From: Candidatus Babeliales bacterium
GTDB taxonomy: Bacteria; Babelota; Babeliae; Babelales; UBA12411
Reading direction: 5' to 3'
DNA length: 34,194 bases
NCBI GenBank assembly: GCA_023128415.1
Contig: JAGMEA010000034.1
Location: forward strand, 1 to 34,194
Made by a program: the position numbers and the translations under genes. Below, one piece after another: positions 11,859 to 34,081 of the stretch. Below the pieces are notes generated by a model, which saw nothing but the letters and a program-made list of their open reading frames with translations, did no database searches and was not told the DNA's origin. Positions within the stretch are counted from its first letter, which is position 1, and each line of letters begins with the position of its first letter.

Positions 11859-11933
11859 TGGCTGGGGCGGAAGGATTCGAACCTCCGAATGGCAGGACCA
11901 AAACCTGCTGCCTTACCACTTGGCTACGCCCCA
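11859..11933 (-). tRNA. tRNA-Gln (anticodon UUG)
   Basis: Complete cloverleaf on the minus strand. Acceptor stem TGGGGCG pairs with CGCCCCA over 7 bp, D arm is GCC-AAGTGGTAA-GGC, anticodon stem GCAGG/CCTGC encloses loop TTTTGGT with anticodon TTG, and the T arm is GGAGG-TTCGAAT-CCTTC with one G-T pair. Discriminator G is followed by an encoded CCA (11859-11861). The short distances to spoVG upstream (19 bp) and lpxA downstream (12 bp) suggest it is processed from a common transcript. Confidence 0.97.
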
Positions 11934-14259: not shown

Positions 14260-15693
14260 TTAGACTTGTAATGAGGAGTTAATTTTTTCTAACAATTGAG
14301 TAACTTCTTTGCTTTTACTTTTTAATGTTTCAATTTTTGTAACGGCATGAAGCACTGTTGTGTGGTTTCTACCACCTACAAAATCTCCTATAGCTTGAAA
14401 AGAGGTGGTCGTTTCTTTTTTCAGCATATAAAAAGCAACTTGTCTTGCTAAAGCAATATTTTTATTTCTGTTTTTTGATTTTATATCTTCAATAGATACA
14501 GAGCAATATTTTGCAACAGTTTTTAATATTTTATTTAATGAGCTAGATGTTTTGCTTTTAGGTTGATTTACTTCTCCTAAAATTTGATTTGCCAAGTCTA
14601 TTGTTATTTCTTTACCAGTTAATGATGAAAAAGCTTCTATTCTAATTAAGCAACCCTCTAGTTCTCTTATGCTATTTACCTCTTGTGATGCTATAAATTT
14701 AATTACTTCTTCTTCTATATTTAAATTTTGTGATAGCATCTTTTTTTTCAGTATGGCTATTTTCATTTCTAAGGTTGGTAATTGAACATCTGCGACTAAT
14801 CCAGATTGCAATCGTGATTTTAATCGATTTTGTAATCCTGCTATATCATTAGGGAGTGTGTCGCTAGAGAAAATCACTTGTTTATTTCTGTTATGTAATG
14901 CATCAAAAATATGAAATAAGATTTCTTGAGTTTGTTCTTTTTTTGAAAAAAATTGAACATCATCTAATAGGAGTAAGTCTACCTTTTGATATTTTTCTCT
15001 AAATTGTCTTATTTTATCGTTCCTTATTGATGTAATAAATTCATTTATAAAACTATCGGATGTTTTATATAACACGTTTGCATTTTTATTCTTCTCTCTT
15101 ACTTCATTTCCTACTGCATGGAGTAGGTGCGTTTTGCCTAATCCGGTTGGACCATATATAAATAAAGGATTGTAGACCTTTCCTAAATTTTTAGAAACGG
15201 CAATAGCCGCCGCTTGTGCTAGTGAATTGCTTGGGCCGACTACTAGGGAATCAAAAGTAAATTTTGGATTGAGTTTTTCAGAAAACAACCTTGGAAAATT
15301 TTTATAATTCTTTTTTTCTATTATTTCTTTTTTTGCATAAGTAGTTGGAAGATTTTTTTTAAAACCTTCATCCCTAAAATTATCCGCCAGCACTTGTTTT
15401 TGTAGTGCTGATGCAGGAATTAATCTTTTTGTTTCTCCTTTTTCCTCTGTTTTGCAGAAAAGAAATAATTTAATTGAATCAGTGTGTAATAATCGACTCA
15501 AGTGTGTTTTTATTAAACTAATATAATGTTCTTGAATCCATTTTCTTACAAATGGATTAGGCATTAATAAAAAAGCAGTATTTGTTTCTTTGTCCCAGCG
15601 TTCTAACCTGACCGCTTTGAACCAAGTCTCAACTACTTGGGTTCCTGCTTCTTGTTTAATAATGTTTAAAAAATCGTCCCAAATTAGTTGCAC
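14260..15693 (-). CDS. dnaA: Chromosomal replication initiator DnaA
   Basis: AAA+ ATPase that binds DnaA boxes and opens oriC. All four domains are visible: domain I (IWDDFLNIIKQEAGTQVVETWF, helicase and partner contacts), a linker to about residue 140, the AAA+ core with Walker A GPTGLGKT (181-188), Walker B LLLLDDVQF (about 241-249) and SSDTLPNDI, and domain IV with the signature GGRNHTTVLHAV near the C-terminus preceded by IALARQVAFYMLKKET. The 477 residues are normal. The start is GTG 15693, continuing QLIWDD; no ATG nearby fits. The 104 bp to the divergent lipoprotein gene show no cluster of TTATNCACA boxes, so oriC is not evident here. A lipoprotein gene, rsmH and spoVG follow on the same strand. 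Confidence 0.97.
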   Translation of the reverse strand: MQLIWDDFLNIIKQEAGTQVVETWFKAVRLERWDKETNTAFLLMPNPFVRKWIQEHYISLIKTHLSRLLHTDSIKLFLFCKTEEKGETKRLIPASALQKQVLADNFRDEGFKKNLPTTYAKKEIIEKKNYKNFPRLFSEKLNPKFTFDSLVVGPSNSLAQAAAIAVSKNLGKVYNPLFIYGPTGLGKTHLLHAVGNEVREKNKNANVLYKTSDSFINEFITSIRNDKIRQFREKYQKVDLLLLDDVQFFSKKEQTQEILFHIFDALHNRNKQVIFSSDTLPNDIAGLQNRLKSRLQSGLVADVQLPTLEMKIAILKKKMLSQNLNIEEEVIKFIASQEVNSIRELEGCLIRIEAFSSLTGKEITIDLANQILGEVNQPKSKTSSSLNKILKTVAKYCSVSIEDIKSKNRNKNIALARQVAFYMLKKETTTSFQAIGDFVGGRNHTTVLHAVTKIETLKSKSKEVTQLLEKINSSLQV

Positions 15694-22865: not shown

Positions 22866-24785
22866 TTATTGCTTCTCTTTAAACTCTGCTTCTATTGGTT
22901 CTTCTTGGTTTTCAGCTTTATTTTTTTGTTGGTCATTTTGAGCATTTTGCTCGTTAGAAGTTTGAGCTTCTTTTTCTTGTGCTTCCTTGTATAAAATTTC
23001 AGAGATTTTATATGAAGCTTGCATTAAATCGTCACTTGCCTTTTTAAGTGCATCAAGATCATTTTCATTTTCTTTTAACACTTTTTTTGCTTCAGTTAAT
23101 GCTTGTTCAACTTTCTCTACTTCTTCAGCAGGAAGCTTTTCTTTATTTTCAGAAATGGTTTTTTCAATTTGTGTTATAGTTCCGTCTAAACGATTTTTAG
23201 TTTCAACTGTTTCCTTGCGTTTTTTATCATCAGATTCATGCATCTGAGCGTCTTTTACAAGGTTATCAACTTCATCTTTTGATAAACCGCTTGAATTACT
23301 AATGGTTACATTTTGTTCTTTTCCGGTTCCCTTGTCTTTAGCCGATACATTAAGAATTCCGTTTGCATCTAAATCAAATGTTACTTCGATTTGGGGAACA
23401 CCTCTAGGAGCGGATGGAATGCCATCTAATCTAAATTGTCCTAGAGTTTTATTGTCTCTAGCAAACTCACGTTCACCCTGAAGTATATGAATATCAACGG
23501 CAGATTGACCATTTTCAGCAGTTGAGAAAACCTGATTTTTCTTTGTTGGTATTGTTGTGTTTCTTTCAATTAATTTGGTTGCAATACCACCAAGAGTTTC
23601 AATAGATAGTGATAACGGTGTAACATCTAAAAGAAGTACGTCGGTTACATCACCAGCCAAAACCCCACCTTGGATAGCAGCACCTTTTGAAACAACCTCA
23701 TCCGGATTAACGGATTTATTAGATTCTTTTCCAAAGAACTCTTTTACCATTTGTTGTACTTTTGGAATACGAGTAGAACCTCCAACAAGTATAACTTCAT
23801 TAATATCAGAAGCTGTTAGATTTGCATCTTTGATAGCCTTTTTACAAGGCTCAAATAATTTGTTGAACATCTCAGAGCATAAACTTTCAAGTTTTGATCT
23901 TGATAATTTTTTAACAAGATGTTTTGGTCCTGATGCGTCTGCAGTTATGTAAGGAAGATTAATTTCTGTTTCAAGAGTAGAAGACAGTTCGATCTTTGCT
24001 TTTTCAGCAGCTTCTTTTAACCTTTGAACTGCCATTTTATCTTTATAAAGATCTACACCTTGTTCTTTTTTAAATTCATTTGCCAAATAATTAATTAAAA
24101 TAGTATCTACATTATCACCACCCAACATGGTGTCACCATTAGTAGATTTAACCTCCACAACCCCGTCACCGACTTCTAATATAGAAATATCAAATGTTCC
24201 ACCACCAAAATCGAACACTACTATTTTTTCATTATTTTTTTTATCAAGTCCATATGCTAAAGCAGCAGCAGTTGGCTCGTTAATAATTCTTTTAACATTT
24301 AAACCTGCAATTTTACCAGCATCTTTAGTTGCTTGACGTTGTGAGTCGTTAAAATACGCAGGAACTGTAATAACTGCATCGGTTACACTTGTACCTAGGT
24401 ATTCTTCTGCAGCTTTCTTTAATTTCTGCAAAACAGCAGCGGCCATTTCTTGTGGTGTGTAAGTTTTACCATCAATTTCTATAGCAGCATCGCCATTAGC
24501 AGCAGCAACTAACTTGAAAGGTACGTGTTTTTGTTCGTCTTTAACTTCTGCAAACTTTTTACCTATAAGTCTTTTAGCTGAATAAATAGTTTTTTCCGGA
24601 TTGGTAACGGATTGTCTTTTAGCAACGGCACCAACAAGTCGTTCTCCATCTTTTGTAAACGCGACTATAGAAGGAGTGGTATTTGTTCCCTCTTGGTTAG
24701 GAATAACTTTAGAGGTTCCTCCCTCCATTAGAGATACTACTGAGTTAGTAGTTCCTAAGTCGATTCCGATTATTTTACTTGCCAT
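22866..24785 (-). CDS. dnaK: Chaperone DnaK (Hsp70)
   Basis: Cytosolic ATP-driven chaperone. Complete at 639 residues: phosphate-binding [11 protein letters not shown] at the N-terminus, [34 protein letters not shown], the second phosphate loop [26 protein letters not shown], the linker [12 protein letters not shown], the substrate-binding domain (GERxxARDNKxLGxF, [22 protein letters not shown]), a helical lid, and a Gln/Asn-rich tail ending in [15 protein letters not shown] 24785 has an optimal AGGAGG ribosome site. dnaJ and grpE are not adjacent, so dnaK is a separate unit, controlled by the promoter and CIRCE-like element just upstream. Confidence 0.98.
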
Positions 24786-24878: not shown

Positions 24879-24905
24879 CTAGCACTGAAAAAATCTTAGT
24901 GCAAG
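24879..24905 (-). promoter_or_regulatory. CIRCE-like HrcA operator upstream of dnaK
   Basis: CTAGCACTG, 9-nt centre, TAGTGCAAG compared with the consensus TTAGCACTC-N9-GAGTGCTAA: 7/9 and 6/9 matches with the exact 9-nt spacing and the core GCACT/AGTGC intact. It lies in the transcribed leader, about 75-95 bp before the dnaK start. This implies repression by HrcA, relieved on heat shock; hrcA itself is not in the window. Confidence 0.75.
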
Positions 24906-24954: not shown

Positions 24955-25245
24955 GAAACCTTATGCTGTCCGGCTAAGATTTGTATATTGAGGGATGGAG
25001 TACATCCTACCTGTATTTCTGGAAGGGCGAGATTTAATATGAGGGATCCAACTAAGATTTCATGTTGAAAATATCGCTAGGCATAAGAGAAGATAAAGTT
25101 CTTAGTTTTTTGAAAAACTTTGGACTGGAATGCGTCGCATAATTCTATGGGGCTAGTTCCTCAAGTGTTCTTTTCTAGAATAGGGTGAGAATCTCAACTC
25201 TCAGTTTTCTAGCTGGACCTTACCAGCCCCTTTCAATCGTGGTCT

Positions 25246-25276
25246 CCCCTCCCCACCCTCCGTCCGCGCACCCCCC
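25246..25276 (-). other. Potential G-quadruplex (minus strand)
   Basis: Four C-runs on the plus strand (CCCC, CCCC, CCC, CCCCCC) separated by loops of 1, 1 and 12 nt. On the minus strand this fits a G-quadruplex with one long loop. It stands out because C/G runs of this size are otherwise rare in this AT-rich window. Confidence 0.5.
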
Positions 25277-25640
25277 ATCCTTTTTACCTGGGCTTCTTCG
25301 TGGGTATTTTGAGGGCTTCCTGCCTCCTTGGCGGATGGCAAGTGGGTACATTACGAGGGCATTACTTGGAGCAACGGGGGAAAAGCTACGGGGTTGATTC
25401 TATGATGGAAAAACGTAAGTTTATAACCTTAGCCGTGGGCTTTTAAGCAAAGGGGGAGGGTGTTTTAACATGAATGCCACCGTGGGTATCTAAACGAAGC
25501 TGTGGGGTTTGGACTACGTGATTATTGGAGGAGTTATTCCTTCTACCGGCTAAAGTCTTATGTCTTTAAGGCGCTTATAATTAAAACCCTTAAAAGGAAG
25601 AAGGAGGAGGAGAAGAAAAAGAATGAGAGTAAGAAAAAAA

Positions 25641-25751
25641 AGATTCTCATAAAGGAGTGGGTCAAAAGACCACACACCATAGAAGCTCTTTTCAGAGCTT
25701 TTACTATCTCTTGAGAGATCTAAGGATTCTCATTAAAGATTCTCATAAGGC
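25641..25751. repeat. Three hairpins bounded by direct repeats
   Basis: AGATTCTCATAA occurs at 25641-25652 and 25738-25749, with a variant GGATTCTCATTA at 25724-25735. Between the outer copies lie three hairpins: GTGGGTC/GACCAC around AAAA (25657-25673, one bulged G), AAGCTCT/AGAGCTT around TTTC (25683-25700), and ATCTCT/AGAGAT around TG (25706-25719). The density of perfect stems suggests an RNA structure or a small mobile or repeat element. Confidence 0.55.
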
Positions 25752-25792: not shown

Positions 25793-25868
25793 GATAATGC
25801 TTCGCACGATAACGCTTCACTTCATATCATAACGCGCCTACATAATATCATAACGCGTCTATATTATG
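25793..25868. repeat. Degenerate tandem repeats, unit about 20-21 bp, with embedded inverted repeat
   Basis: The core ATAACGC or ATAATGC recurs at starts 25793, 25808, 25828 and 25849. The two best units, 25826-25846 and 25847-25867, are adjacent 21-mers differing at about three positions. CATAATAT (25841-25848) and ATATTATG (25861-25868) form a perfect inverted repeat around a centre with the palindrome ACGCGT. No spacers or cas genes, so not CRISPR. Confidence 0.6.
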
Positions 25869-26093
25869 ATGCACCTACATAAACCAATCGCACGCACATA
25901 AAAAAAAATACTTAATAACCAATACACGTAATCTTAAAAATCTTCTTAATGCCATGTTTTTCTTAACTAATAATAGTTAACAATTTATTAAAAACCAAAA
26001 AAGGGAAATAGGGCGCTGTTTTGCAAGTTATTGATTTAATTATTTTGCTTGTTATTTCTTATGACTTTTAAGCAATTATTATATCTAATCTTG

Positions 26094-26123
26094 GAATATA
26101 ATCTTCCCTGGAAGATTATATTC
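26094..26123. repeat. Perfect 14-bp inverted repeat spanning a stop codon
   Basis: GAATATAATCTTCC and GGAAGATTATATTC separated by 2 nt. The stop codon of the leftmost propeller gene (26116-26118) lies inside the right arm. There is no T-run on either side, so it is a weak intrinsic terminator at best, but it is the obvious 3'-end hairpin of the propeller operon. Confidence 0.6.
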
Positions 26124-27597
26124 TTCTATCAGCCAAGTTCTTATTTCTTCTGGGAAAGTTACAAAGAATTTCATATAAATGGGCATGCTGTTGAAAGTTG
26201 ATGGTTTGTGACGGCTCTTGGGCATGAAGCATGTCTAAAACTCGTATTAATATACACTGGTTTAATGTCAAATCTACATACCACAGACTTGTTGTTCCAT
26301 CAGTCTGTTTAGAAAGAAAAGACTTTTCCATGCGGTCCCAACTTATTTCAAATGTTTTTAACGGTATTTTTATTTGGGTTGGGCTCCATTCTCCACTTCT
26401 CAATTGCCATAAATACGATTCTGAACCTTTGTGTTTAGTAATAAATGAATGCTCCTTATTCCAGAAAATATTAAATATATCTTGGGTAGGTAATAATGTT
26501 GGTTCCCATTGTCCTCCCACTGATTTCCATATATTTATTGATTCATCAGCGTGCTTAGAAATAAAATATTTGCCACTGGGACACCAAGAAATAGTGATTA
26601 CATCCTGTATTTTAAGCTGCGTTGCTATCCATTGCCCATTTATTTCTTGCCATAAATATGTTGAGCCATCGGTAAGTATAATAATGAAACTTTTATCACT
26701 AGGGTTAGGGTTCCAATAGATGTTTGATACATTTTGTAGCAAAAGACCTCGTTGATATTGCTCGTTAAGCAACACCCAAAGGATTGCTGTTTCATCGTAA
26801 TGTTTCGAAAGAAATGCCTCACCGTTAGGGCTCCAGAGGATTTTAGATGCGTTTTCTAGTTCTAATTGACTTGCTTGCCATTCTCCATCTCCCAAAACCC
26901 ACAAAATTCCTTGAAAATTAATTTGTATAGCAACAAAAGAGTTTCCATTAGGATTCCACTTTACATCAAATATGTTTGGGATTGGCTGTGCTACTGATTT
27001 CCATCGGCCATCTACTAATTGCCAAATAAATCCTTCAAACGTTTCCGCATTTACTGAGTATGTAATAACAAATTCGTCTTTATTAGGACTCCAGTGAATA
27101 GAGTGTATAGTTCTTCCTCTTTTCTTTATAGAGGTTTGTCGCCATCGATTATTTACCAACCGCCAAACATACGCTGATTCGTTAGAATAGTGTTGGGTTA
27201 TAAAAGAGGTACCATTATGGTTTGGATGTAAACGATATGCTCCTTGTATAGGTAGCCTAGTTGGTTCTAGGTATCCATCTACCAACCTCCATATAGTGTT
27301 ATAACCTTCTTCCGTAGTAAGAAATAATTTTTTATCATCGTTATGGCTAACATCCCATTTCTGCCGCCTTTGGAGCGGCTTTTGTAGGTATATTGGGTCT
27401 TTTTCAACAATTAAATCTTGTACTAGTCCCAACTTGTTGATATCAGCAAAATATTTGGGATCCCTTAAAGCCTTGTTTAATTCAGATTCACTTCTGTAAT
27501 TAGCAGCTTGTTTTTGCAAGGCAAGTTGTTCTAGAGTAGGAACAGCAGAAAGCGTGGTGATAGTAGATAATAAAAAGCTAAGTAGTAAATTCTTCAT
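26116..27597 (-). CDS. Exported divergent WD-like beta-propeller protein, C-terminus frameshifted
   Basis: 493 residues from ATG 27597, chosen over TTG 27603 because the signal peptide MKNLLLSFLLSTITTLSA starts there. After a helical module (LEQLALQKQAANYRSESELNKAL) come about 8-9 blades of roughly 42 residues with the pattern hhW-P-G--Fhs-H-DES--hW-hhdG-W--t-l (e.g. ISWCPSGKYFISKHADESINIW). It is a diverged WD40 form without GH dipeptides. The C-terminal module (HAHLYEILCNF) then breaks: the last residues PRRNKNLADRRI are out of frame. Removing one base from GGG 26152-26154 would give PEEIRTWLIEEYNLPGK, matching the C-termini of its paralogues, with a stop at 26085-26087. The gene overlaps its upstream neighbour by 20 bp, so they are co-transcribed. 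Location is likely periplasmic or secreted; binding partner unknown. Confidence 0.82.
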   Translation of the reverse strand: MKNLLLSFLLSTITTLSAVPTLEQLALQKQAANYRSESELNKALRDPKYFADINKLGLVQDLIVEKDPIYLQKPLQRRQKWDVSHNDDKKLFLTTEEGYNTIWRLVDGYLEPTRLPIQGAYRLHPNHNGTSFITQHYSNESAYVWRLVNNRWRQTSIKKRGRTIHSIHWSPNKDEFVITYSVNAETFEGFIWQLVDGRWKSVAQPIPNIFDVKWNPNGNSFVAIQINFQGILWVLGDGEWQASQLELENASKILWSPNGEAFLSKHYDETAILWVLLNEQYQRGLLLQNVSNIYWNPNPSDKSFIIILTDGSTYLWQEINGQWIATQLKIQDVITISWCPSGKYFISKHADESINIWKSVGGQWEPTLLPTQDIFNIFWNKEHSFITKHKGSESYLWQLRSGEWSPTQIKIPLKTFEISWDRMEKSFLSKQTDGTTSLWYVDLTLNQCILIRVLDMLHAQEPSQTINFQQHAHLYEILCNFPRRNKNLADRRI

Positions 27598-29044
27598 GTG
27601 CAACTTCTTTTAAATTTGTATCAATATATTTTACTTTTGCTGGATATTTAGGATTTTTTAAAGCTTCTTTGTTAATAGCATCTAGTTTTAAATAATTTTC
27701 TTGTTCTAAAGTTAATTCTGGGATGTCATACTCCGCAATCAATTCTTTTCTCATATCTTCTTCAAAGGAATAAAGAATTATATATAAATGGGCATGTTCT
27801 TCCAGATTTAAAATAACATTTTGTCTTTTAAGTAAATTTAAAGCTTCTATAAGCATATGTTGTTTAAAAGTTAACAGATCTTTTTCCGGTTGCCATATCT
27901 TTATTGATCTATCAGGATGTACAGATATAAAGCAATTATCATTAGAGCTCCAGTGAATGTTGGAAAATTTTTCTGTTCCGAGTTTTATTGACCTATATTC
28001 ACCATCTACAAGCTCCCATATGTATCCCATAGAGTCTTCTATAGAAATAAAAAATTTACCACTAGGACTCCAGCAGATATCAGACAGGATTTTTGTTTCT
28101 AGTATAGTTGGCTGCCATTGACCATCTACGAATTTCCAAAGTTTTGTTGGTTCGTTTCGGTGTGTAGAAACAAAAGACATTTCCTTAGGATTCCAAAAAA
28201 TACTATATACATTTTTTACTGGTAATAACGTTGAGGTCCAGACTCCATTTTTGATTTCCCACAGACATGTTTTGTTGCTTAGATGTGTTGTAATGAATAA
28301 ATTCTTATTGTTGTAAATACCAATTGTAGTCGGTGATTCCTCCAGATAAGATGATGAAAAAGTTCCATCCATCATCAATTGATATAGCCTTACTCCATTA
28401 TCTGGATCTCTAGATATAAATCCAGCGGGAATCTTAGTATTACTGGGTAATGAGTGAAAAGGTATTATTTGAAATTGAGAATTTTCTAATAAATATAGTG
28501 TTAAAGAAAAATTTCTATCAATTAAAATAAGTATATTTCCCTGATTATTCCATAGCATATAGCGCATATTGTTTGCTTGAATTTCTGTAGGGGTAGATCG
28601 CCATACGTTTTCTGATATTTCCCATAGGGTTATATTAAGGTTTCTATCAATAGAAATAAAAGATGTTCCTGTAGGATTCCAAATTATACGTATTGCTTCT
28701 AACTGAAAAATAGAACGATATTCTCCATCTATTAACTGCCATAAGTAAGCTTGATTATCTATTGAAACAAAAAATCTGTTGTTAGAGTTCCAATAAATAG
28801 GACCTTGGAAGACTTCTCTTTGGATTGGCAAGTATTTAGGAATAGCACTTGCTATTTTTGATTGTGCAGGCTCAGTGAGAGTTTCATTTATATTGGTAAA
28901 ATAATCAGTCTTATTTATAAATTTTTCAATTTCAGCTTTACTTCTAAAAGAAGCTCCTAGCTTTTGGGCAACAAGCTCTTCTAGAGTAGGTATTGCTGAT
29001 AATGTTGTTATAGATAGTAATAAACTAAGCAGCCATTTTTTCAT
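27578..29044 (-). CDS. Exported divergent WD-like beta-propeller protein
   Basis: 488 residues. ATG 29044 was chosen over ATG 29056 because GGAG sits 6 nt before it and the signal peptide MKKWLLSLLLSITTLSA begins there. N-terminal helical module (PTLEELVAQKLGASFRSKAEIEKFI), then about eight blades (e.g. YSIFWNPKEMSFVSTHRNEPTKLWKFVDGQW, ICWSPSGKFFISIEDSMGYIWELVDGEY), then the helical C-terminal module (HAHLYIILYSFEEDMRKELIAEYDIPEL). An extra tail (LEQENYLKLDAINKEALKNPKY) resembles the N-terminal module of the following gene, which starts inside its last 20 bp. It shares a signal peptide style and propeller subtype with the 26116 gene; the two form an operon. Confidence 0.85.
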   Translation of the reverse strand: MKKWLLSLLLSITTLSAIPTLEELVAQKLGASFRSKAEIEKFINKTDYFTNINETLTEPAQSKIASAIPKYLPIQREVFQGPIYWNSNNRFFVSIDNQAYLWQLIDGEYRSIFQLEAIRIIWNPTGTSFISIDRNLNITLWEISENVWRSTPTEIQANNMRYMLWNNQGNILILIDRNFSLTLYLLENSQFQIIPFHSLPSNTKIPAGFISRDPDNGVRLYQLMMDGTFSSSYLEESPTTIGIYNNKNLFITTHLSNKTCLWEIKNGVWTSTLLPVKNVYSIFWNPKEMSFVSTHRNEPTKLWKFVDGQWQPTILETKILSDICWSPSGKFFISIEDSMGYIWELVDGEYRSIKLGTEKFSNIHWSSNDNCFISVHPDRSIKIWQPEKDLLTFKQHMLIEALNLLKRQNVILNLEEHAHLYIILYSFEEDMRKELIAEYDIPELTLEQENYLKLDAINKEALKNPKYPAKVKYIDTNLKEVAHEEFTT

Positions 29045-29090
29045 GAAAATCTCCATTTTTTATAAAAAATGTGGCCAAAATGCCCTTTTC

Positions 29091-29142
29091 TATTTGCAAA
29101 TAATTATATATTATATGATGGCATATGATTTATAATTGTCAA
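29091..29142 (-). promoter_or_regulatory. Candidate promoter of the two-gene propeller operon
   Basis: Minus-strand TTGACA (29137-29142) is a perfect -35. The -10 is ambiguous: CATCAT after 16 bp or ATCATA after 17 bp, with a TATAAT at 21 bp that is too far. The perfect palindrome TATTTGCAAATA (29091-29102) lies downstream and contains the octamer ATTTGCAA shared with the other propeller promoters. Confidence 0.45.
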
Positions 29143-29180
29143 AAGGAGTCCCTGGATGTATAAGGAGTTTCTGGATGTAT
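29143..29180. repeat. Tandem 19-bp direct repeat beside a -35 element
   Basis: Two adjacent copies of AAGGAGTYYCTGGATGTAT (29143-29161 and 29162-29180) differ at two positions. They abut the TTGACA of the preceding promoter on its upstream side, a position suited to an activator site. No protein is encoded. Confidence 0.6.
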
Positions 29181-29216
29181 AATGAAGATGTTTTTAGTAG
29201 ATTTGTCTTATTAGGA

Positions 29217-29245
29217 ATATAGCTGCTAATTATTAGCAGCTATAT
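29217..29245. repeat. Perfect 14-bp inverted repeat, probable 3'-end hairpin
   Basis: ATATAGCTGCTAAT and ATTAGCAGCTATAT with a single central T, 49 bp beyond the stop of the 29294 gene on the minus strand. No T-run follows, so it may be a transcript-stabilising hairpin or a dyad operator rather than a classic terminator. Confidence 0.55.
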
Positions 29246-29293
29246 AGAGTTAACTTTAATATGCTATTATAAATAACTATTTTTTTAGATTTA

Positions 29294-30634
29294 TTAAACC
29301 TTGGGAAATCCATAAACCTTTTTTAAATGTTCTCTAGTTTTATAAGCTAGGGAGTTGTATAAATCAAAAAGATGTCTATATTCTACAAAGTTTTTTATTT
29401 CTCTTCTAGAAACAAGTAGTATAAATAAGGCCTTTTTTAGATCACGGTCGGAAAGATCGGTTTCTTGCCAGAACATAATTGAGTCATCCTCATCGTGAGC
29501 CGCAGCGATTGTTTGACCATCAGAGCTAAGAGCTAAAGCAGTAAAACCATCGCGGTTACCTTTTAGTTCATATGACTTATTAGTTTCGATATCCCAGACT
29601 CTGATTGTGCCATCCTTAGATGCACTAAAAACTTTTCGACTATCAGGACTCCAGGCTACCGAGGTGACTTCATCAGAATGTTCTCTCAATGCATATTCAC
29701 TAAAGTTTCCGGTTTCTGTATTCCATATCCTTACATCACTATCGCTATGACCAGAAGCAACTCTTTTTCCATCAGGGCTCCAGGCTACCGAGTAAATTTT
29801 ATTTTGAATAGCATAAAATCCACTTTCTATTCTTCTTCCAGTTATAGCATCCCAAATCGACACATTGCCATCTTTGGCTCCGCTGACAAGCTTTTTGCCA
29901 TCAGGTGTCCATGATAATGAGGTAATGCTATTAACATGTGCTCTCGGTGGATTTGCATAAGCTTGTAGCATAAGCTCTTCTTTTTTAATTTCAAAATTCC
30001 AGATTCTAATTGTGGCGTCGAGTGACCCAATAGCAAGTTTTTTTCCACTAGGACTCCAGGCTACTGCCATAATTCTACTAGGCTGGCCTTGTTCTCTTTG
30101 TAGTAAGTGTTCGATATTTTTTGTTTTGGCATTCCATATTTTAACAGTACCATCACGTGAGCCAATCGCAAGATGTTTACCATTAGGGCTCCAGGCTACT
30201 GTATCTATAAAATCTCTACCTTTTAAAATAAATGCAGGTTCTCCAGTTTCAATATTCCAAACTATGGTTCTTTTATTCCAAGATCCACTAGCAAGATGTT
30301 TACCATTAGGGCTCCATGCTAGTTTTGAACTTGGATTCCAGGATAATGAAACAATTCTACTAAAATGTTTTTTTAATTTTTTAGGAGTTGGAGTGTATCT
30401 AAAAATAATACTTGGGTTTTTAATATCTATTTGTTTAATAATTTTTACTTGACCCTTTTCTGGCAAGTTAAGTTCCGCTTTTAAATTCTCAAAGCCTCTC
30501 GGAGTTTTCATATTATCAAGCCAACGGCCTAAATGTTTTCTTACAGCTTGCTCAGCTGCTAGTTCTCCGAGGGATGTTTGGCTAAAAACATTTAGATTGG
30601 ATATGCAAAACAATAAAACAAATAACTTTTTCAT
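29294..30634 (-). CDS. Exported WD40-repeat beta-propeller protein
   Basis: 446 residues from ATG 30634, which has GGGAG upstream; ATG 30658 is rejected because it would put MGLKGENL before the signal peptide MKKLFVLLFCISNLNVFS. A helical module (LGELAAEQAVRKHLGRWLDNM ... LNLPEKG) is followed by seven canonical WD40 blades (e.g. VAWSPDGKRVASGHSDSDVRIWNTETG), enough for one closed propeller. Blade 1 has a small internal duplication (SLSWNPSSK/LAWSPNGK). The C-terminal helical module is DLKKALFILLVSRREI ... HLFDLYNSLAYKTREHLKKVYGFP. Own promoter at 30668-30697. Closest relative in the window is the 30777 gene. WD40 domains are scaffolds for protein binding; an exported one in a host-associated organism could contact host or surface proteins (inference). 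Confidence 0.88.
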   Translation of the reverse strand: MKKLFVLLFCISNLNVFSQTSLGELAAEQAVRKHLGRWLDNMKTPRGFENLKAELNLPEKGQVKIIKQIDIKNPSIIFRYTPTPKKLKKHFSRIVSLSWNPSSKLAWSPNGKHLASGSWNKRTIVWNIETGEPAFILKGRDFIDTVAWSPNGKHLAIGSRDGTVKIWNAKTKNIEHLLQREQGQPSRIMAVAWSPSGKKLAIGSLDATIRIWNFEIKKEELMLQAYANPPRAHVNSITSLSWTPDGKKLVSGAKDGNVSIWDAITGRRIESGFYAIQNKIYSVAWSPDGKRVASGHSDSDVRIWNTETGNFSEYALREHSDEVTSVAWSPDSRKVFSASKDGTIRVWDIETNKSYELKGNRDGFTALALSSDGQTIAAAHDEDDSIMFWQETDLSDRDLKKALFILLVSRREIKNFVEYRHLFDLYNSLAYKTREHLKKVYGFPKV

Positions 30635-30667
30635 AAGATTTTCTCCCTTTAACCCCATTTATTTTTA

Positions 30668-30697
30668 ATTATACAAGGCTTTTATTGCAAATAGCAA
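30668..30697 (-). promoter_or_regulatory. Promoter of the 29294 propeller gene, shared module copy 1
   Basis: Minus-strand TTGCTA (30692-30697), 18-bp spacer, TATAAT (30668-30673). The octamer ATTTGCAA lies at 30685-30692 and forms part of the inverted repeat TATTGC-N5-GCAATA (30683-30699). The same arrangement occurs before two other propeller genes. Confidence 0.7.
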
Positions 30698-30721
30698 TAT
30701 TTGGTGGGGATGTACTAAAAT

Positions 30722-30747
30722 AAAAAAGAGGCACCGAGTTGATGCCT
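30722..30747 (-). terminator. Rho-independent terminator after the 30777 propeller gene
   Basis: On the minus strand AGGCATC/GGTGCCT (7 bp with one T-G pair, 5-nt loop) followed by CTTTTTTA. It lies 29 bp past the stop and just upstream of the next gene's promoter, so the two propeller genes are separate units. Confidence 0.88.
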
Positions 30748-30776
30748 AATTAGATTATAAATTTTGAAAGAATTGA

Positions 30777-32093
30777 TTAAATTTGTTCAGGAAAATTATA
30801 AGTTTTTTCTAAGTATTGTTTAGCTTCTTCGCTTAATGAATTATATAACGGGATGAGGTGCTGAGTAGTGATATTGAAGGTATTTATTTTTTTTGTTGTA
30901 ATAAGAATCATCAACAAGGCCTTTTTAAGGTCTGAATCACTGTAATCAGTTTTCATCCAGAGTTTTATCGTATTATTGTCTTCTGCCGTAGCAATTGTCT
31001 TTCCATCAGGACTCAGGGCTAGAGAAGTAATTTTATTACTTGGATTTCTTAGCACATATGTATTTCTAGTTTCTATATTCCAGAGACTAATTATGCCATC
31101 ATCAGACCCGCTAAAAATTATACGATTGTCAGGGCTCCAGGCTACAGAATTCACTCTACTTTTGTTTATTGCTGGCAGATCTTTTCTACGAGTAGTTCTA
31201 ATATTCCAAGCTGTTACTTCGCCGTTTATATTTCCAATAGCAAGACATTTGCCATCAGAACTCCAGGCCATCGAAGTAACAGGCCGATCTACGGACAAGG
31301 TTTTTTCCTTTGCTCTGGTTGTGGCATTCCAAATATTTACTATACCATTAAAAAATCCACCAGCTAGGTTTTGTCCATCAGGACTCCAGGCTATTGAAAT
31401 AACTGCATTTCTGCTGGCCCTAAATTGATGCTCTTGTTCTTTTGTTTTCAGGTTTATTAAGTTAATATATCCATCACTAGTTCCAATAGCAATTCTTCTA
31501 CCATCAGGACTGAAGGCCATTGTTGAAAAGGAAACTGCTTGTGGCTGACCTCCCACATCATATTCTTCTTGTAATATGTCGATGATTTTTCCTGTTTCAA
31601 CATCCCAAATTCTAATTGAGTTATTTGCTGATATGTCAGCAAGTTTTCTGCTATCAGGGCTCCAGGCTAATGATTTTTTACGCGAAGATTTTTTAAAAAT
31701 CCATTTGGGGCTTCCAGTTTTAACATCCCAGATTGTTGTATTATTATTTCCAGATCCACTAGCAATTTTTTTGCCATCAGGACTCCAAGCTACTGTAGAG
31801 GCTGTATAGCTGGGAGGCATTTTTAATTCTTGAGGAGGAAATGTGTAAAGAAAAATAGTGCTAGGATATCGAGTATCTATTAGCTTGAGAATGTTTGATT
31901 TGACCTTTTCAGGCAAGTTCAGCTCGGCATTTAGTTGCTCGAATTTATCCGGGCTTTTCATATCATCAAGCCAACGGCTTAAATGTTCTCTTACAGCCTG
32001 CTCAGCTGCTTGTTCACTAAGTGATCTTATTGGTGCTTGGCTAAAAACACTTAGATTTGAGAAGCAAAATAATAAAATAAATAACTTTTTCAT
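30777..32093 (-). CDS. Exported WD40-repeat beta-propeller protein
   Basis: 438 residues from ATG 32093, preceded by AGGAGG; the longer ATG 32117 start is rejected for the same reason as in its neighbour. Signal peptide MKKLFILLFCFSNLSVFS, helical module (SEQAAEQAVREHLSRWLDDM ... LNLPEKV), seven WD40 blades (e.g. VAWSPDGKKIASGSGNNNTTIWDVKTG, IAWSPDGQNLAGGFFNGIVNIWNA), and the C-terminal module (DLKKALLMILITTKKI ... HLIPLYNSLSEEAKQYLEKTYNFP). Very similar to the 29294 protein in both end modules, so the pair is a recent duplication. Own promoter and own terminator. Confidence 0.88.
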   Translation of the reverse strand: MKKLFILLFCFSNLSVFSQAPIRSLSEQAAEQAVREHLSRWLDDMKSPDKFEQLNAELNLPEKVKSNILKLIDTRYPSTIFLYTFPPQELKMPPSYTASTVAWSPDGKKIASGSGNNNTTIWDVKTGSPKWIFKKSSRKKSLAWSPDSRKLADISANNSIRIWDVETGKIIDILQEEYDVGGQPQAVSFSTMAFSPDGRRIAIGTSDGYINLINLKTKEQEHQFRASRNAVISIAWSPDGQNLAGGFFNGIVNIWNATTRAKEKTLSVDRPVTSMAWSSDGKCLAIGNINGEVTAWNIRTTRRKDLPAINKSRVNSVAWSPDNRIIFSGSDDGIISLWNIETRNTYVLRNPSNKITSLALSPDGKTIATAEDNNTIKLWMKTDYSDSDLKKALLMILITTKKINTFNITTQHLIPLYNSLSEEAKQYLEKTYNFPEQI

Positions 32094-32126
32094 AAGGCTT
32101 CCTCCTTTTAACCCCATTTATTTTTA

Positions 32127-32156
32127 ATTATATAAGGATTTCCTTGCAAATAGCAA
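32127..32156 (-). promoter_or_regulatory. Promoter of the 30777 propeller gene, shared module copy 2
   Basis: Minus-strand TTGCTA (32151-32156), 18-bp spacer containing ATTTGCAA (overlapping at 32144-32151), and TATAAT (32127-32132). The downstream leader AATTAAAAATAAATGGGG is almost identical to that of copy 1. Confidence 0.7.
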
Positions 32157-32191
32157 TATTTTGCGGGAATGTATCATCATAATAGAAAAGA

Positions 32192-32214
32192 GGCGCCAAA
32201 TTTTCAGTGGCGCC
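32192..32214 (-). terminator. Hairpin terminator downstream of the 32525 gene and its decayed copy
   Basis: Minus-strand TGGCGCC-type arms, GGCGCCA/TGGCGCC on the plus strand (7 bp, 9-nt loop), followed by TCTTTTCTATTAT on the minus strand. It lies beyond the pseudogene fragment, which separates it from the intact gene's stop by 310 bp. Confidence 0.75.
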
Positions 32215-32221
32215 AATAGTT

Positions 32222-32514
32222 TTATAAAAAGGAGTTGTAGATTTTTATTAAATGTTGATATCTTTTGGGAAATTGAAATTGATCCCTTAAAGGGTTTCGA
32301 ATGGTTATTTTTTTATCTTTTGCCAGAATTAAAAACAGCGTCTTAAATAAATCATCTTTTCTACTCCCTGGTCCTGATATAAATCGGTCTCTTTCCAAGT
32401 TTCAGCTAAATAATTTTCATCCAAAGTTAAAATTTTCTTACCATCGGGACTCCAAAAGCCATCAAGTATCATATATTCAGTAGCATTAAAATGATTTAAA
32501 TGGAATAAGTCCTT
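32222..32514 (-). pseudogene. Decayed 3'-end copy of a WD40 propeller gene
   Basis: Translating the minus strand gives DLFHLNHFNATEYMILDG, then FWSPDGKKILTLDENYLAET and WKETDLY, matching DLLHLNHFDRKEN and FWSPDGTNILTEERNGVTEV of the adjacent 32525 gene. The frame then shifts near 32357-32360, after which DDLFKTLFLILAKDKKIT and KRYQHLIKIYNSFL match SDLFRALFLILVKNKTIT and KKYQHLMEIYHSL. It ends at a stop in 32222-32224. There is no start, signal peptide or N-terminal blade. It lies directly after the stop codon of the intact gene, consistent with a partial tandem duplication followed by decay. Similarity is by eye but extends over the full fragment. Confidence 0.85.
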
Positions 32515-32524
32515 TTAATGCTAA

Positions 32525-34081
32525 TTATGCCGGTCCTGCTTCCCCATCAATAGATTCTTTGTCTTTGCCTTTATCTTTTTTTATTTCGATATCAAAATAT
32601 CTTAAAAGATATTTTTTTGCTTGGTCTGATAAAGAGTGGTAGATTTCCATCAAATGTTGATATTTTTTAGATTTAATGTTCGATTTGGTTATTGTTTTAT
32701 TTTTTACTAGGATTAGAAAAAGAGCTCTAAATAAGTCACTTTTTATATCTACCGATCCTACATAGAGATCAATTTCATTCCAAACTTCGGTTACTCCATT
32801 TCTTTCTTCAGTTAGAATATTCGTACCATCAGGACTCCAAAATGCACGGATCATTGTATTTTCTTTTCTGTCGAAATGATTTAAGTGCAATAAATCTTGA
32901 CCGGTTTGCGCATTATATATATTTGCCTTTCTATTTTTTCCTGGAGAAAGAAGAATTTGAGAACTATCAGGGCTCCAGCTTATTGTGGCTAGTATTGACA
33001 GAATTCCCTCACTATGTACCTCTATTTTAGAAAGTATTTTCGATGTATGAGCATCCCATATTCTTACCGTATTATCAAAGGAGGAAGTAGCAATTTTTTT
33101 TCCATCAGGGCTGTATTCAGCCATATTTACAGTATTAAAATGCCCTTGAAGACTTTTACTAAATAATTTTCTTCTTCCGGGCAAATTTCTAATGACATTC
33201 ATATTGTCAGGATTGCAAATATTTGCACCGCGATGTCCATCTTCAGTAATAATATAAGTACCGTCAGGACTCCATCCATAAGCAAATCTTGTATCACTCA
33301 ATCTTACCCCTGTATCAGCATCCCAAATGATGCTGATACTTGCAGACTTTGTCATAATTTTACTTCCATCCGGGCTCCATTTAATTATAGCAATGGATTC
33401 AGGGTGGCCATCGAGATTATGTTTAGGCTTTTCTTTTTGAAGATCCCATATTACTGCTCTATTACCTAATCCGGAGATTAGATTTTTTCCATCAGGACTC
33501 CAAGCTAATGCAAAAAAGTTTTCTACAGGAGCAAAAGTTAAAGTAGTTTTATAATGCACCATTGAATTTTCTAGATACATTATCCTTATAGAAGAGGGGG
33601 CAAATGTAGCAAATAGGTTAGGAATTTTAGGACTCCAGCTTATTGTACCTATGTTAGCTTCATGTTCTGTTGGAAAAATTCCAACTTTTATACTTTTTCC
33701 CTTAATCTGGAAGGGTTGTTGATCCCTCCAAATATTTACGTCTTGATTGACTGGAATGCCAGCCATTTTGCCATCAGAACTCCAATTTTCAAAACTAATA
33801 TTTCTATCGATTTGACCAAGGTAGGACTCTGTTATATATCCGGAAATTGAGTATGGATTTAATTTTTTTATTGCTTTTAAGACATCAATTATTGTTTTTT
33901 CAGGGATATTCAATTCTCTTTTAAGATTTTCAAGTCTATTTATAGATAGCATATTATTTAACCAACTAGCTAATCTTGTTTGAACAAGTGTTTCTGCTGA
34001 TAGTTTGGTGAGAGGTTGTGGTATTTGTGAAAATAAACTTAAATTAGACAGTAAAATTAGTAAAATTAACGATTTTTTCAT
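32525..34081 (-). CDS. Exported WD40-repeat beta-propeller protein
   Basis: 518 residues, the longest of the five. ATG 34081 has AAGGAG upstream and begins the signal peptide MKKSLILLILLSNLSLFS. The helical N-terminal module (LSAETLVQTRLASWLNNM ... LNIPEKT) is followed by about eight blades, several irregular (e.g. LAWSPDGKNLISGLGNRAVIWDLQ, AEYSPDGKKIATSSFDNTVRIWDAHTS) and one with a long insertion near the centre. The C-terminal module (SDLFRALFLILVKNKTI ... HLMEIYHSLSDQAKKYLLRYFDI) ends with a Lys/Asp/Glu-rich tail. Promoter copy 3 lies upstream and a decayed copy of its 3' end lies directly downstream. Likely exported; ligand unknown. Confidence 0.87.
   Translation of the reverse strand: MKKSLILLILLSNLSLFSQIPQPLTKLSAETLVQTRLASWLNNMLSINRLENLKRELNIPEKTIIDVLKAIKKLNPYSISGYITESYLGQIDRNISFENWSSDGKMAGIPVNQDVNIWRDQQPFQIKGKSIKVGIFPTEHEANIGTISWSPKIPNLFATFAPSSIRIMYLENSMVHYKTTLTFAPVENFFALAWSPDGKNLISGLGNRAVIWDLQKEKPKHNLDGHPESIAIIKWSPDGSKIMTKSASISIIWDADTGVRLSDTRFAYGWSPDGTYIITEDGHRGANICNPDNMNVIRNLPGRRKLFSKSLQGHFNTVNMAEYSPDGKKIATSSFDNTVRIWDAHTSKILSKIEVHSEGILSILATISWSPDSSQILLSPGKNRKANIYNAQTGQDLLHLNHFDRKENTMIRAFWSPDGTNILTEERNGVTEVWNEIDLYVGSVDIKSDLFRALFLILVKNKTITKSNIKSKKYQHLMEIYHSLSDQAKKYLLRYFDIEIKKDKGKDKESIDGEAGPA

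Follow-up and report, generated by a model that had tools for sequence, protein, structure and literature searches.

The window, that is, the whole 34,194-nt stretch of DNA that was analyzed, comes from a Dependentiae (Babeliales) contig whose genome amounts to 949 kb in 49 contigs. Between the dnaK gene (22866–24785) and an ORF at 26116, it contains a GC-rich block of 306 bases (25205–25510). The original prediction had described the surroundings of the block as gene-free and the block itself as a compositional outlier. Both descriptions hold: no ORF of at least 90 amino acids lies between 24785 and 26116, and the GC content of the block is 0.520 compared to a mean of 0.327 (SD of 0.039) for 306-base windows, a difference of ~5 SD. 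The most GC-rich 306-base window of the 34 kb (0.529) starts at ~25209–25213, and the next separate window reaches 0.435. The conserved unit considered below is broader than the block and extends from 25134 to at least 25894. The features of the region are as follows:

22866–24785, minus strand: dnaK, the usual neighbor (NCBIfam DnaK equivalog, 983.8 bits; cut-off, 648)
24880–24903, minus strand: imperfect inverted repeat TAGCACT-N11-AGTGCA ahead of dnaK, seen in the sequence
25134–25143, plus strand: left box GTCGCATAAT, exact in the window, conserved before the hairpin and resembling one Xer arm
25246–25276, minus strand: C-run cluster from the motif scan, a weak quadruplex candidate (four G-runs, one 12-nt loop)
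25256–25520, strand unassigned: hairpin core, 265 nt, with an enlarged tip, delimited by the ordered triple with the left box
25256–25264, plus strand: 5′ arm CCCTCCGTC, one change from the consensus CACTCCGTC obtained by 9-mer enrichment
25300–25488, plus strand: enlarged tip with GTGGGTA at 25300, 25342, and 25482, from motif counts
25512–25520, plus strand: 3′ arm GACTACGTG (consensus GACTNCGTG), which pairs with the 5′ arm around a 3×3 internal loop (sequence and covariation)
25592–25642, plus strand: purine tract after the hairpin, seen in the sequence
25883–25894, plus strand: right box ACCAATCGCACG, supported by genome counts of exact AACCAATCGNACG
25999–26016, plus strand: possible fourth motif AAAAGGGAAATAGGGCGC, from the enrichment of AAAAAGGG

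Within the block, C-runs come first and G-runs follow, as had been predicted, and GTGGGTA indeed recurs, with three of the four exact copies in the window located inside the block. The window total is only modestly above the 1.4 copies expected, four being reached by 3 of 100 shuffles. Of the predicted quadruplex motif, less remains. On the plus strand, no motif of four G-runs is present in the block even when loops of up to 12 nt are allowed, while the minus strand has a single motif of four G-runs (complement of 25246–25276), whose third loop is 12 nt; if a G-quadruplex is defined by four G-runs with loops of at most 7 nt, the block contains none. The conserved feature is probably not quadruplex formation. 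The idea that an AT-rich genome retains a GC-rich block because it is functional fits the composition of other structured RNAs of the same genome, which are also richer in GC (RNase P RNA, 0.47; tmRNA, 0.39; SRP RNA, 0.45) than their flanks (0.31–0.33).

A nucleotide search with the block yielded no convincing homologue in its own genome, in the family relative, in phylum genomes, or in phages and plasmids. One place was matched in its own genome, and no place was matched in the single other member of the family; blastn matches in 3 of 100 other phylum genomes were 32 to 56 bases long, and two of them fall in the purine tract. Since the nucleotide search gave no homologues, the neighboring gene dnaK was used to reach the corresponding loci of relatives. 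A search at E values up to 1e-100 identified DnaK in 82 of the 87 phylum genomes, and 80 dnaK-upstream loci were read, 79 of which were long enough for 9-mer enrichment. The words CACTCCGTC and GTCGCATAA were each present in 21 of the 79 loci (0.0 and 0.1 expected, respectively), and GACTACGTG was present in 7 (0.0 expected).

Together, the consensus words CACTCCGTC and GACTNCGTG form a single hairpin, one word in each arm. Both arms were found in 46 of the 80 loci when two changes in all were allowed (1.2 expected in shuffles), in 33 when one was allowed (0.2 expected), and in 28 when none was (0.0 expected). For the 46-locus count, the 3′ arm was picked by sequence only, and an earlier pick made partly by energy is not used as evidence. 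Thirteen of the 46 loci carry two changes, and with 1.2 expected, chance may account for some of them; the arm pair is absent from the other 34 loci. The 33 loci with at most one change represent 10 families, and the 46 loci represent 12. The most GC-rich 100-base window overlaps the hairpin core in 45 of the 46 loci. Absence from close relatives, combined with a lack of expression, had been named as a condition that would refute the original prediction. At the nucleotide level, the family relative indeed has no match, but the hairpin was found there through the gene neighborhood (locus L018; L and G handles denote individual loci and genomes).

In relatives, the core is a GC-rich imperfect hairpin of the form CAC-UCC-GUC-stem-GAC-UNC-GUG. 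From the outside in, the order is a CAC/GUG helix, a 3×3 loop UCC/UNC, a GUC/GAC helix, a 3/2 loop, and then a long stem whose letters vary between genomes. The 5′ loop is UCC in all 46 loci, being part of the selecting motif, and the 3′ loop is UCC in 17, UAC in 16, UUC in 10, and UGC in 3. Core length is 66 to 78 nt in 23 of the 46 loci and reaches up to 280 nt in others, including L032 (249 nt) and L019 (208 nt). Some long cores are rich in plus-strand GTGGG[TC], with four copies in L032 against 0.79 expected, and the motif is absent from 7 of the 19 cores that have at least 80 bases between the arms.

Pairing in the stem was assessed at 12 positions in a fixed register across the 46 loci, where 7.57 positions were paired compared to 6.01 ± 0.22 with partners exchanged. 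An alignment was made from 20 of the 23 compact cores; L079, L083, and L087 were left out as having two arm changes, and the set includes close relatives (L105 and L107). In this alignment, 75% of cells were paired compared to 63.5 ± 1.6, both sides had changed in 14 of the 17 pairs compared to 9.2 ± 1.2, and the covariation score was 0.296 compared to 0.123, none of the three values being reached in 500 shuffles. Further pair types numbered 31 against 25.1 (8 of 500 shuffles). When registers were slid, pairing in the same 20 cores fell to 31–45%. Judged from these aligned sequences, the stem is covarying among relatives. A conserved outer closing stem is at best weakly indicated, with a mean helix score of 13.84 compared to 12.69 ± 0.44 for exchanged partners and a maximum of 14.03 in 300 shuffles; the signal is carried by few loci, chiefly L113. 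In L033 (G081), a long, apparently perfect inverted repeat, noticed by eye, spans both arms and could compete with the family fold.

A covariance model built from the 20 compact cores (R1) was then available for whole genomes. At E values up to 0.05, it gave one match each in 40 of the 87 genomes and none in 47. Twenty of the 40 positive genomes are those on which R1 was trained, and 20 of the 67 others match; since stricter filters were applied and at most 50 candidates were scored per genome, weak second copies could be missed. A degenerate core pattern searched over genome contigs occurred at 12 places, 6 in Dependentiae and 6 in other phyla. The Dependentiae places fold at −20.1 to −31.6 kcal/mol. 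The number in other phyla is close to a hand estimate of about seven by chance; four of these places fold weakly (−6.7 to −15.5), and the remaining two, L220 (−22.4) and L227 (−27.7), fold without their arms being paired.

The original prediction had also allowed for a foreign remnant or a newly acquired block. This part is unsupported, since the hairpin occupies the same neighborhood in 10 to 12 other families of the phylum and a nucleotide search of phages and plasmids gave no match to the block. Eleven viral places found by the degenerate pattern are near-identical 74-base stretches that fold at only −10.5, and in the one examined (L230) the stretch lies inside a long ORF; a foreign or viral origin was thus rejected. 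The GC-rich block is real and is probably not foreign debris. The suggestion that it could be a structured noncoding RNA or a DNA element, on the other hand, gains support, the block most likely being the local copy of a hairpin that covaries in relatives.

The hairpin is accompanied by conserved motifs on both sides. The left box GTCGCATAAT, a word itself taken from the 9-mer enrichment, is found in the 46 core loci exactly in 16 (0.02 expected) and with at most one mismatch in 23 (0.22 expected). With up to two changes, it lies ahead of the core in 32 of the 46, at a spacing of 75 to 149 nt in 28. Its variants GTCGTGTAAT and GTCGCATAAC would argue against reading it as a plain −10 box. On the right, a search of 14 whole genomes for AACCAATCGNACG gave just one copy in 7 of them, always at the hairpin locus, and no copy in the other 7; its reversed control has no occurrences in the 14 genomes. 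Allowing two mismatches in the first 1500 bases, ACCAATCGCACG has a plus-strand site in 39 of the 80 loci and a minus-strand site in 2; in core-bearing loci, 39 right-box sites follow the core and none precedes it. In all 24 loci that have both boxes, the order is left box, core, ACCAATCG. In the same-genus pair L105 and L107, the core, the left box, and the dnaK side are near-identical, and divergence is seen in the spacer that separates the box from the core.

The purine fraction in relatives is 0.62 in the 150 nt after the core compared to 0.456 before it and 0.523 farther out. The word AAAAAGGG is present in 27 of 78 loci (3.2 expected) at 700 to 1500 bp from dnaK and is followed by a GC-rich hexamer in 11 loci; AAAAGGGAAATAGGGCGC, listed above as a possible fourth motif, could alternatively be part of the neighboring gene, at its 3′ end. 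A short tandem-like repeat, ATATCATAACGCGCCTACATAA, is seen in three degraded copies at 25819–25882 between the hairpin and the right box.

The copy in the window is not matched by R1, and its tip is far longer than in R1. Its membership in the family therefore rests on ordered motifs, position, and fold. The left box, the 5′ arm, the 3′ arm, and ACCAATCGNACG lie in this order upstream of dnaK. The ordered triple of left box and two arms is unique in the 34 kb and arose in none of 3000 shuffles of the intergenic region, and AACCAATCGCACG, ending at 25894, is rightly placed and is the sole exact copy in the genome. Four GTGGG[TC] copies lie between the arms compared to 0.27 expected. Forcing the inner closing pairs of the family on the window costs 2 kcal/mol of 84, and the copy of the same-family relative (L018, genome G001) is R1-positive with 35.8 bits. 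The helix 25255/25455, which appears when the window is folded alone, is not the family helix and was discarded.

Most likely, then, the GC-rich patch is an enlarged local copy of the hairpin found near dnaK in many relatives. We regard it as very improbable that an unrelated GC-rich relic or an assembly artifact happens to sit at the site of the family. Such a coincidence would account for the missing R1 match, the one change in the 5′ arm, and a core ~3.8 times the compact length that folds no better than shuffles (z of 1.46 on the plus and 0.96 on the minus strand; a longer stretch gives −1.99 on the plus strand, with 20 shuffles, and −0.35 on the minus strand). It would leave unexplained the ordered triple and the placement of AACCAATCGCACG, and long cores are known in relatives.

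Given its position, the hairpin could act in cis on dnaK, as a leader or regulator. Of the 40 R1 matches, 39 are upstream of dnaK and share one orientation; 33 of these are located 122 to 1114 bp from the gene, as a leader might be. The other six, however, are 2.2 to 5.7 kb away, and their companion motifs are retained: ACCAATCG with at most two mismatches follows in all six, and the left box with at most one mismatch within 370 nt precedes in five. Since the motifs are kept at such distances, the hairpin unit appears to be separate from dnaK. Other conserved words lie nearer the gene, and we read them as probably the promoter of dnaK itself. The inverted repeat at 24880–24903, which we take to be CIRCE-like, was likewise assigned to dnaK and not to the hairpin locus; at this place, relatives have conserved words such as AATCTTAGT, found in 22 of 79 loci compared to 0.3 expected. 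A leader function is thus improbable in our estimate. The remaining R1 match (G045) is on the opposite side of dnaK and is without companion motifs. The idea that one particular gene always borders the locus on the side away from dnaK was rejected as well, as the ORF ends, compared by eye, differ among 13 loci except in the same-genus pair L105/L107 and the similar pair L017/L019.

The locus does not correspond to a cataloged RNA. The covariance search that had been proposed for the block was run with Rfam 15: at gathering cut-offs, only a tRNA (11862–11933) was found in the window, and no family was found in 20 loci of relatives. At lax E-values, only subthreshold matches appeared, one of which overlaps a core (L113, mir-200, 21.5 of the 86 bits needed). 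The tmRNA, RNase P RNA, and SRP RNA were rejected as identities of the locus, since none is in the window and over-cut-off matches are located elsewhere in the genome (RNase P RNA on contig C5, tmRNA on C9, and SRP RNA on C21). For 6S RNA (RF00013), there was no match in the same genome or, up to E = 10, in 10 relatives, with a model that recovers only 5 or 8 of 14 known genomes in a control and can miss divergent members.

The strand of a putative RNA was addressed in several ways, and the tests disagree. Mean fold energies tie between strands (−24.17 and −24.14). Fold z-scores, computed for 33 of the 46 loci with those having two arm changes left out, are lower on the minus strand in 24 of the 33 (means of −1.72 on the minus and −0.91 on the plus strand), while the purine tract is on the plus strand. 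In the structure prediction on both strands that had been proposed as a check, the window core itself behaves like shuffles. The wobble evidence for an RNA strand is mixed. On the plus strand, strand-neutral helix extension gives 137 G·U compared to 54 A·C, but it extends into the U-rich/G-rich tip; flanked single mismatches are 16 G·U, 8 A·C, 27 C·U, and 3 G·A (L086 dropped as a near duplicate of L077); and the 17 aligned pairs contain 9 G·U compared to 13 A·C. Read on the minus strand, the internal loops are GNA/GGA, which would suit sheared G·A pairs.

The tie in fold energies is also what is expected if the locus is a DNA site, that is, a single-stranded hairpin or cruciform bound by a protein such as a recombinase or a replication protein, with the flanking boxes bound as well. 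We treat this as a serious alternative, though less likely than an RNA. Transcription signals are missing: before the left box, no −35 element was seen in core loci, and intrinsic terminators are not in excess on the plus or the minus strand. The left box is similar to an Xer arm. The two-arm pattern TCGCATAAT-N6-TTATGTTAAC (at most three mismatches) occurs in 8 of 80 loci compared to 0 of 80 shuffled ones; the right box is single-copy and keeps a fixed order. Against a DNA site, no repeated binding sites were seen, and it is more often in RNA that one meets internal loops which are conserved and flanked by short invariant helices.

The resemblance to a dif/XerCD site is limited to one arm, GTCGCATAAT, a second arm being present in a minority of loci and missing in the window. 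In four genomes, a separate dif-like site, TTCYGATAAT-N5-TTATGTWAAAA, was found near the GC-skew switch with a pattern derived from its first two matches:

G097:472646 (L158); hairpin at 510.4 kb
G046:459290 (L165); hairpin at 502.9 kb
G049:424200 (L213); hairpin at 463.7 kb
G025:95112 (L200), with three mismatches; hairpin at 29.3 kb

The scan covered sampled 20-kb stretches (22 in G097, 18 in G046 with one N, 16 in G025, 18 in G005, and 8 in G049). In all four genomes with both elements placed, two of which (G046 and G049) belong to one genus, the hairpin is 38 to 66 kb from the dif-like site. Such proximity would suit a DNA site, but the hairpin itself is no part of dif, and a dif or terminus identity was rejected because of the missing right arm in the window and the separate site. 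In G005, the 18 sampled stretches contained no clear dif-like site, and R1 has no match in this genome. A replication origin was rejected as well, since GC skew places the origin far from the hairpin in G097, G046, and G025.

The attC sites of integrons are imperfect hairpins of single-stranded DNA whose boxes are paired, whose spacer is unpaired, and whose tip varies in length. The Dependentiae hairpin is similar in these respects and differs in that its boxes are 3 bp long, have other letters, and are present in one copy.

We consider the chances about even that the block represents the core of a noncoding Dependentiae gene that is independent and makes a structured RNA. The reading of the locus as an RNA gene is based on the single matching place per genome wherever R1 finds one, on the constant order of left box, hairpin, and ACCAATCGNACG where all are recognized, on a stem that covaries and is closed by two short helices, nearly invariant, with a conserved 3×3 loop, and on the GC-richness that the block shares with other RNAs of its genome. 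The tip is variable in length and enlarged in the window genome. In such a gene, the hairpin locus would be transcribed. The conserved internal loops may serve as a docking site for a protein (or RNA), which the stem would merely present. Since the companion motifs are retained when the unit lies 2 to 6 kb from dnaK, the RNA would act in trans, in a housekeeping or regulatory role, rather than as a dnaK leader. One job that it might perform is that of 6S or Ms1, holding RNA polymerase, which is considered because none of the 11 genomes tested gave a 6S match. A more specific version, in which a phylum-specific, single-copy, multidomain noncoding RNA of ~0.3 to 0.9 kb from box to box has an essential trans job, perhaps replacing 6S, and a tip that freely expands and contracts, appears rather unlikely at present.

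The Dependentiae hairpin resembles 6S (RF00013) and Ms1 in being a long irregular hairpin with an internal loop. Unlike 6S, it has no RF00013 match and no clear, generally conserved closing stem, and its core is often only ~70 nt. According to the accessible part of the report on Ms1 in Streptomyces, the gene neighborhood helped its discovery too (PMC9130861). A second relevant case is the “dnaK motif” (PBC-38-1) of Enterobacteriaceae, which the accessible text presents as structured, covarying, intergenic, and upstream of dnaK; it was found via GC-rich intergenic regions, and its authors suggest a possible action as single-stranded DNA (PMC11109978). The two motifs share covariation, a position upstream of dnaK, and the logic of discovery. 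PBC-38-1, compared here by its description in that text, differs in having its reported representatives in Enterobacteriaceae, lying between dnaK and satP, and overlapping a potential promoter (PMC11109978). The portions of the Babela and Chromulinavorax genome papers available to us name only rRNA, tRNA, SRP RNA, tmRNA, and RNase P RNA, and no report of the hairpin locus was found in the accessible literature on Dependentiae, Babela, Chromulinavorax, and 6S or dnaK RNAs. A noncoding locus conserved in 10 to 12 families of these reduced bacteria, which infect protists, would count as a gene of the group that had been overlooked, and the hairpin offers a defined starting point for experiments on what such parasites cannot do without.

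Several other genes of the window deserve mention. The ORF at 26116–27603 has no NCBIfam match. It is the first of five minus-strand ORFs (26116, 27578, 29294, 30777, and 32525) that follow the hairpin locus over 26116–34081; several of them appear, from a reading of their sequences, to have WD40-like repeats and perhaps form a local paralogue array. The dnaA gene (NCBIfam) is located at 14260–15693, in the same window as the hairpin locus.
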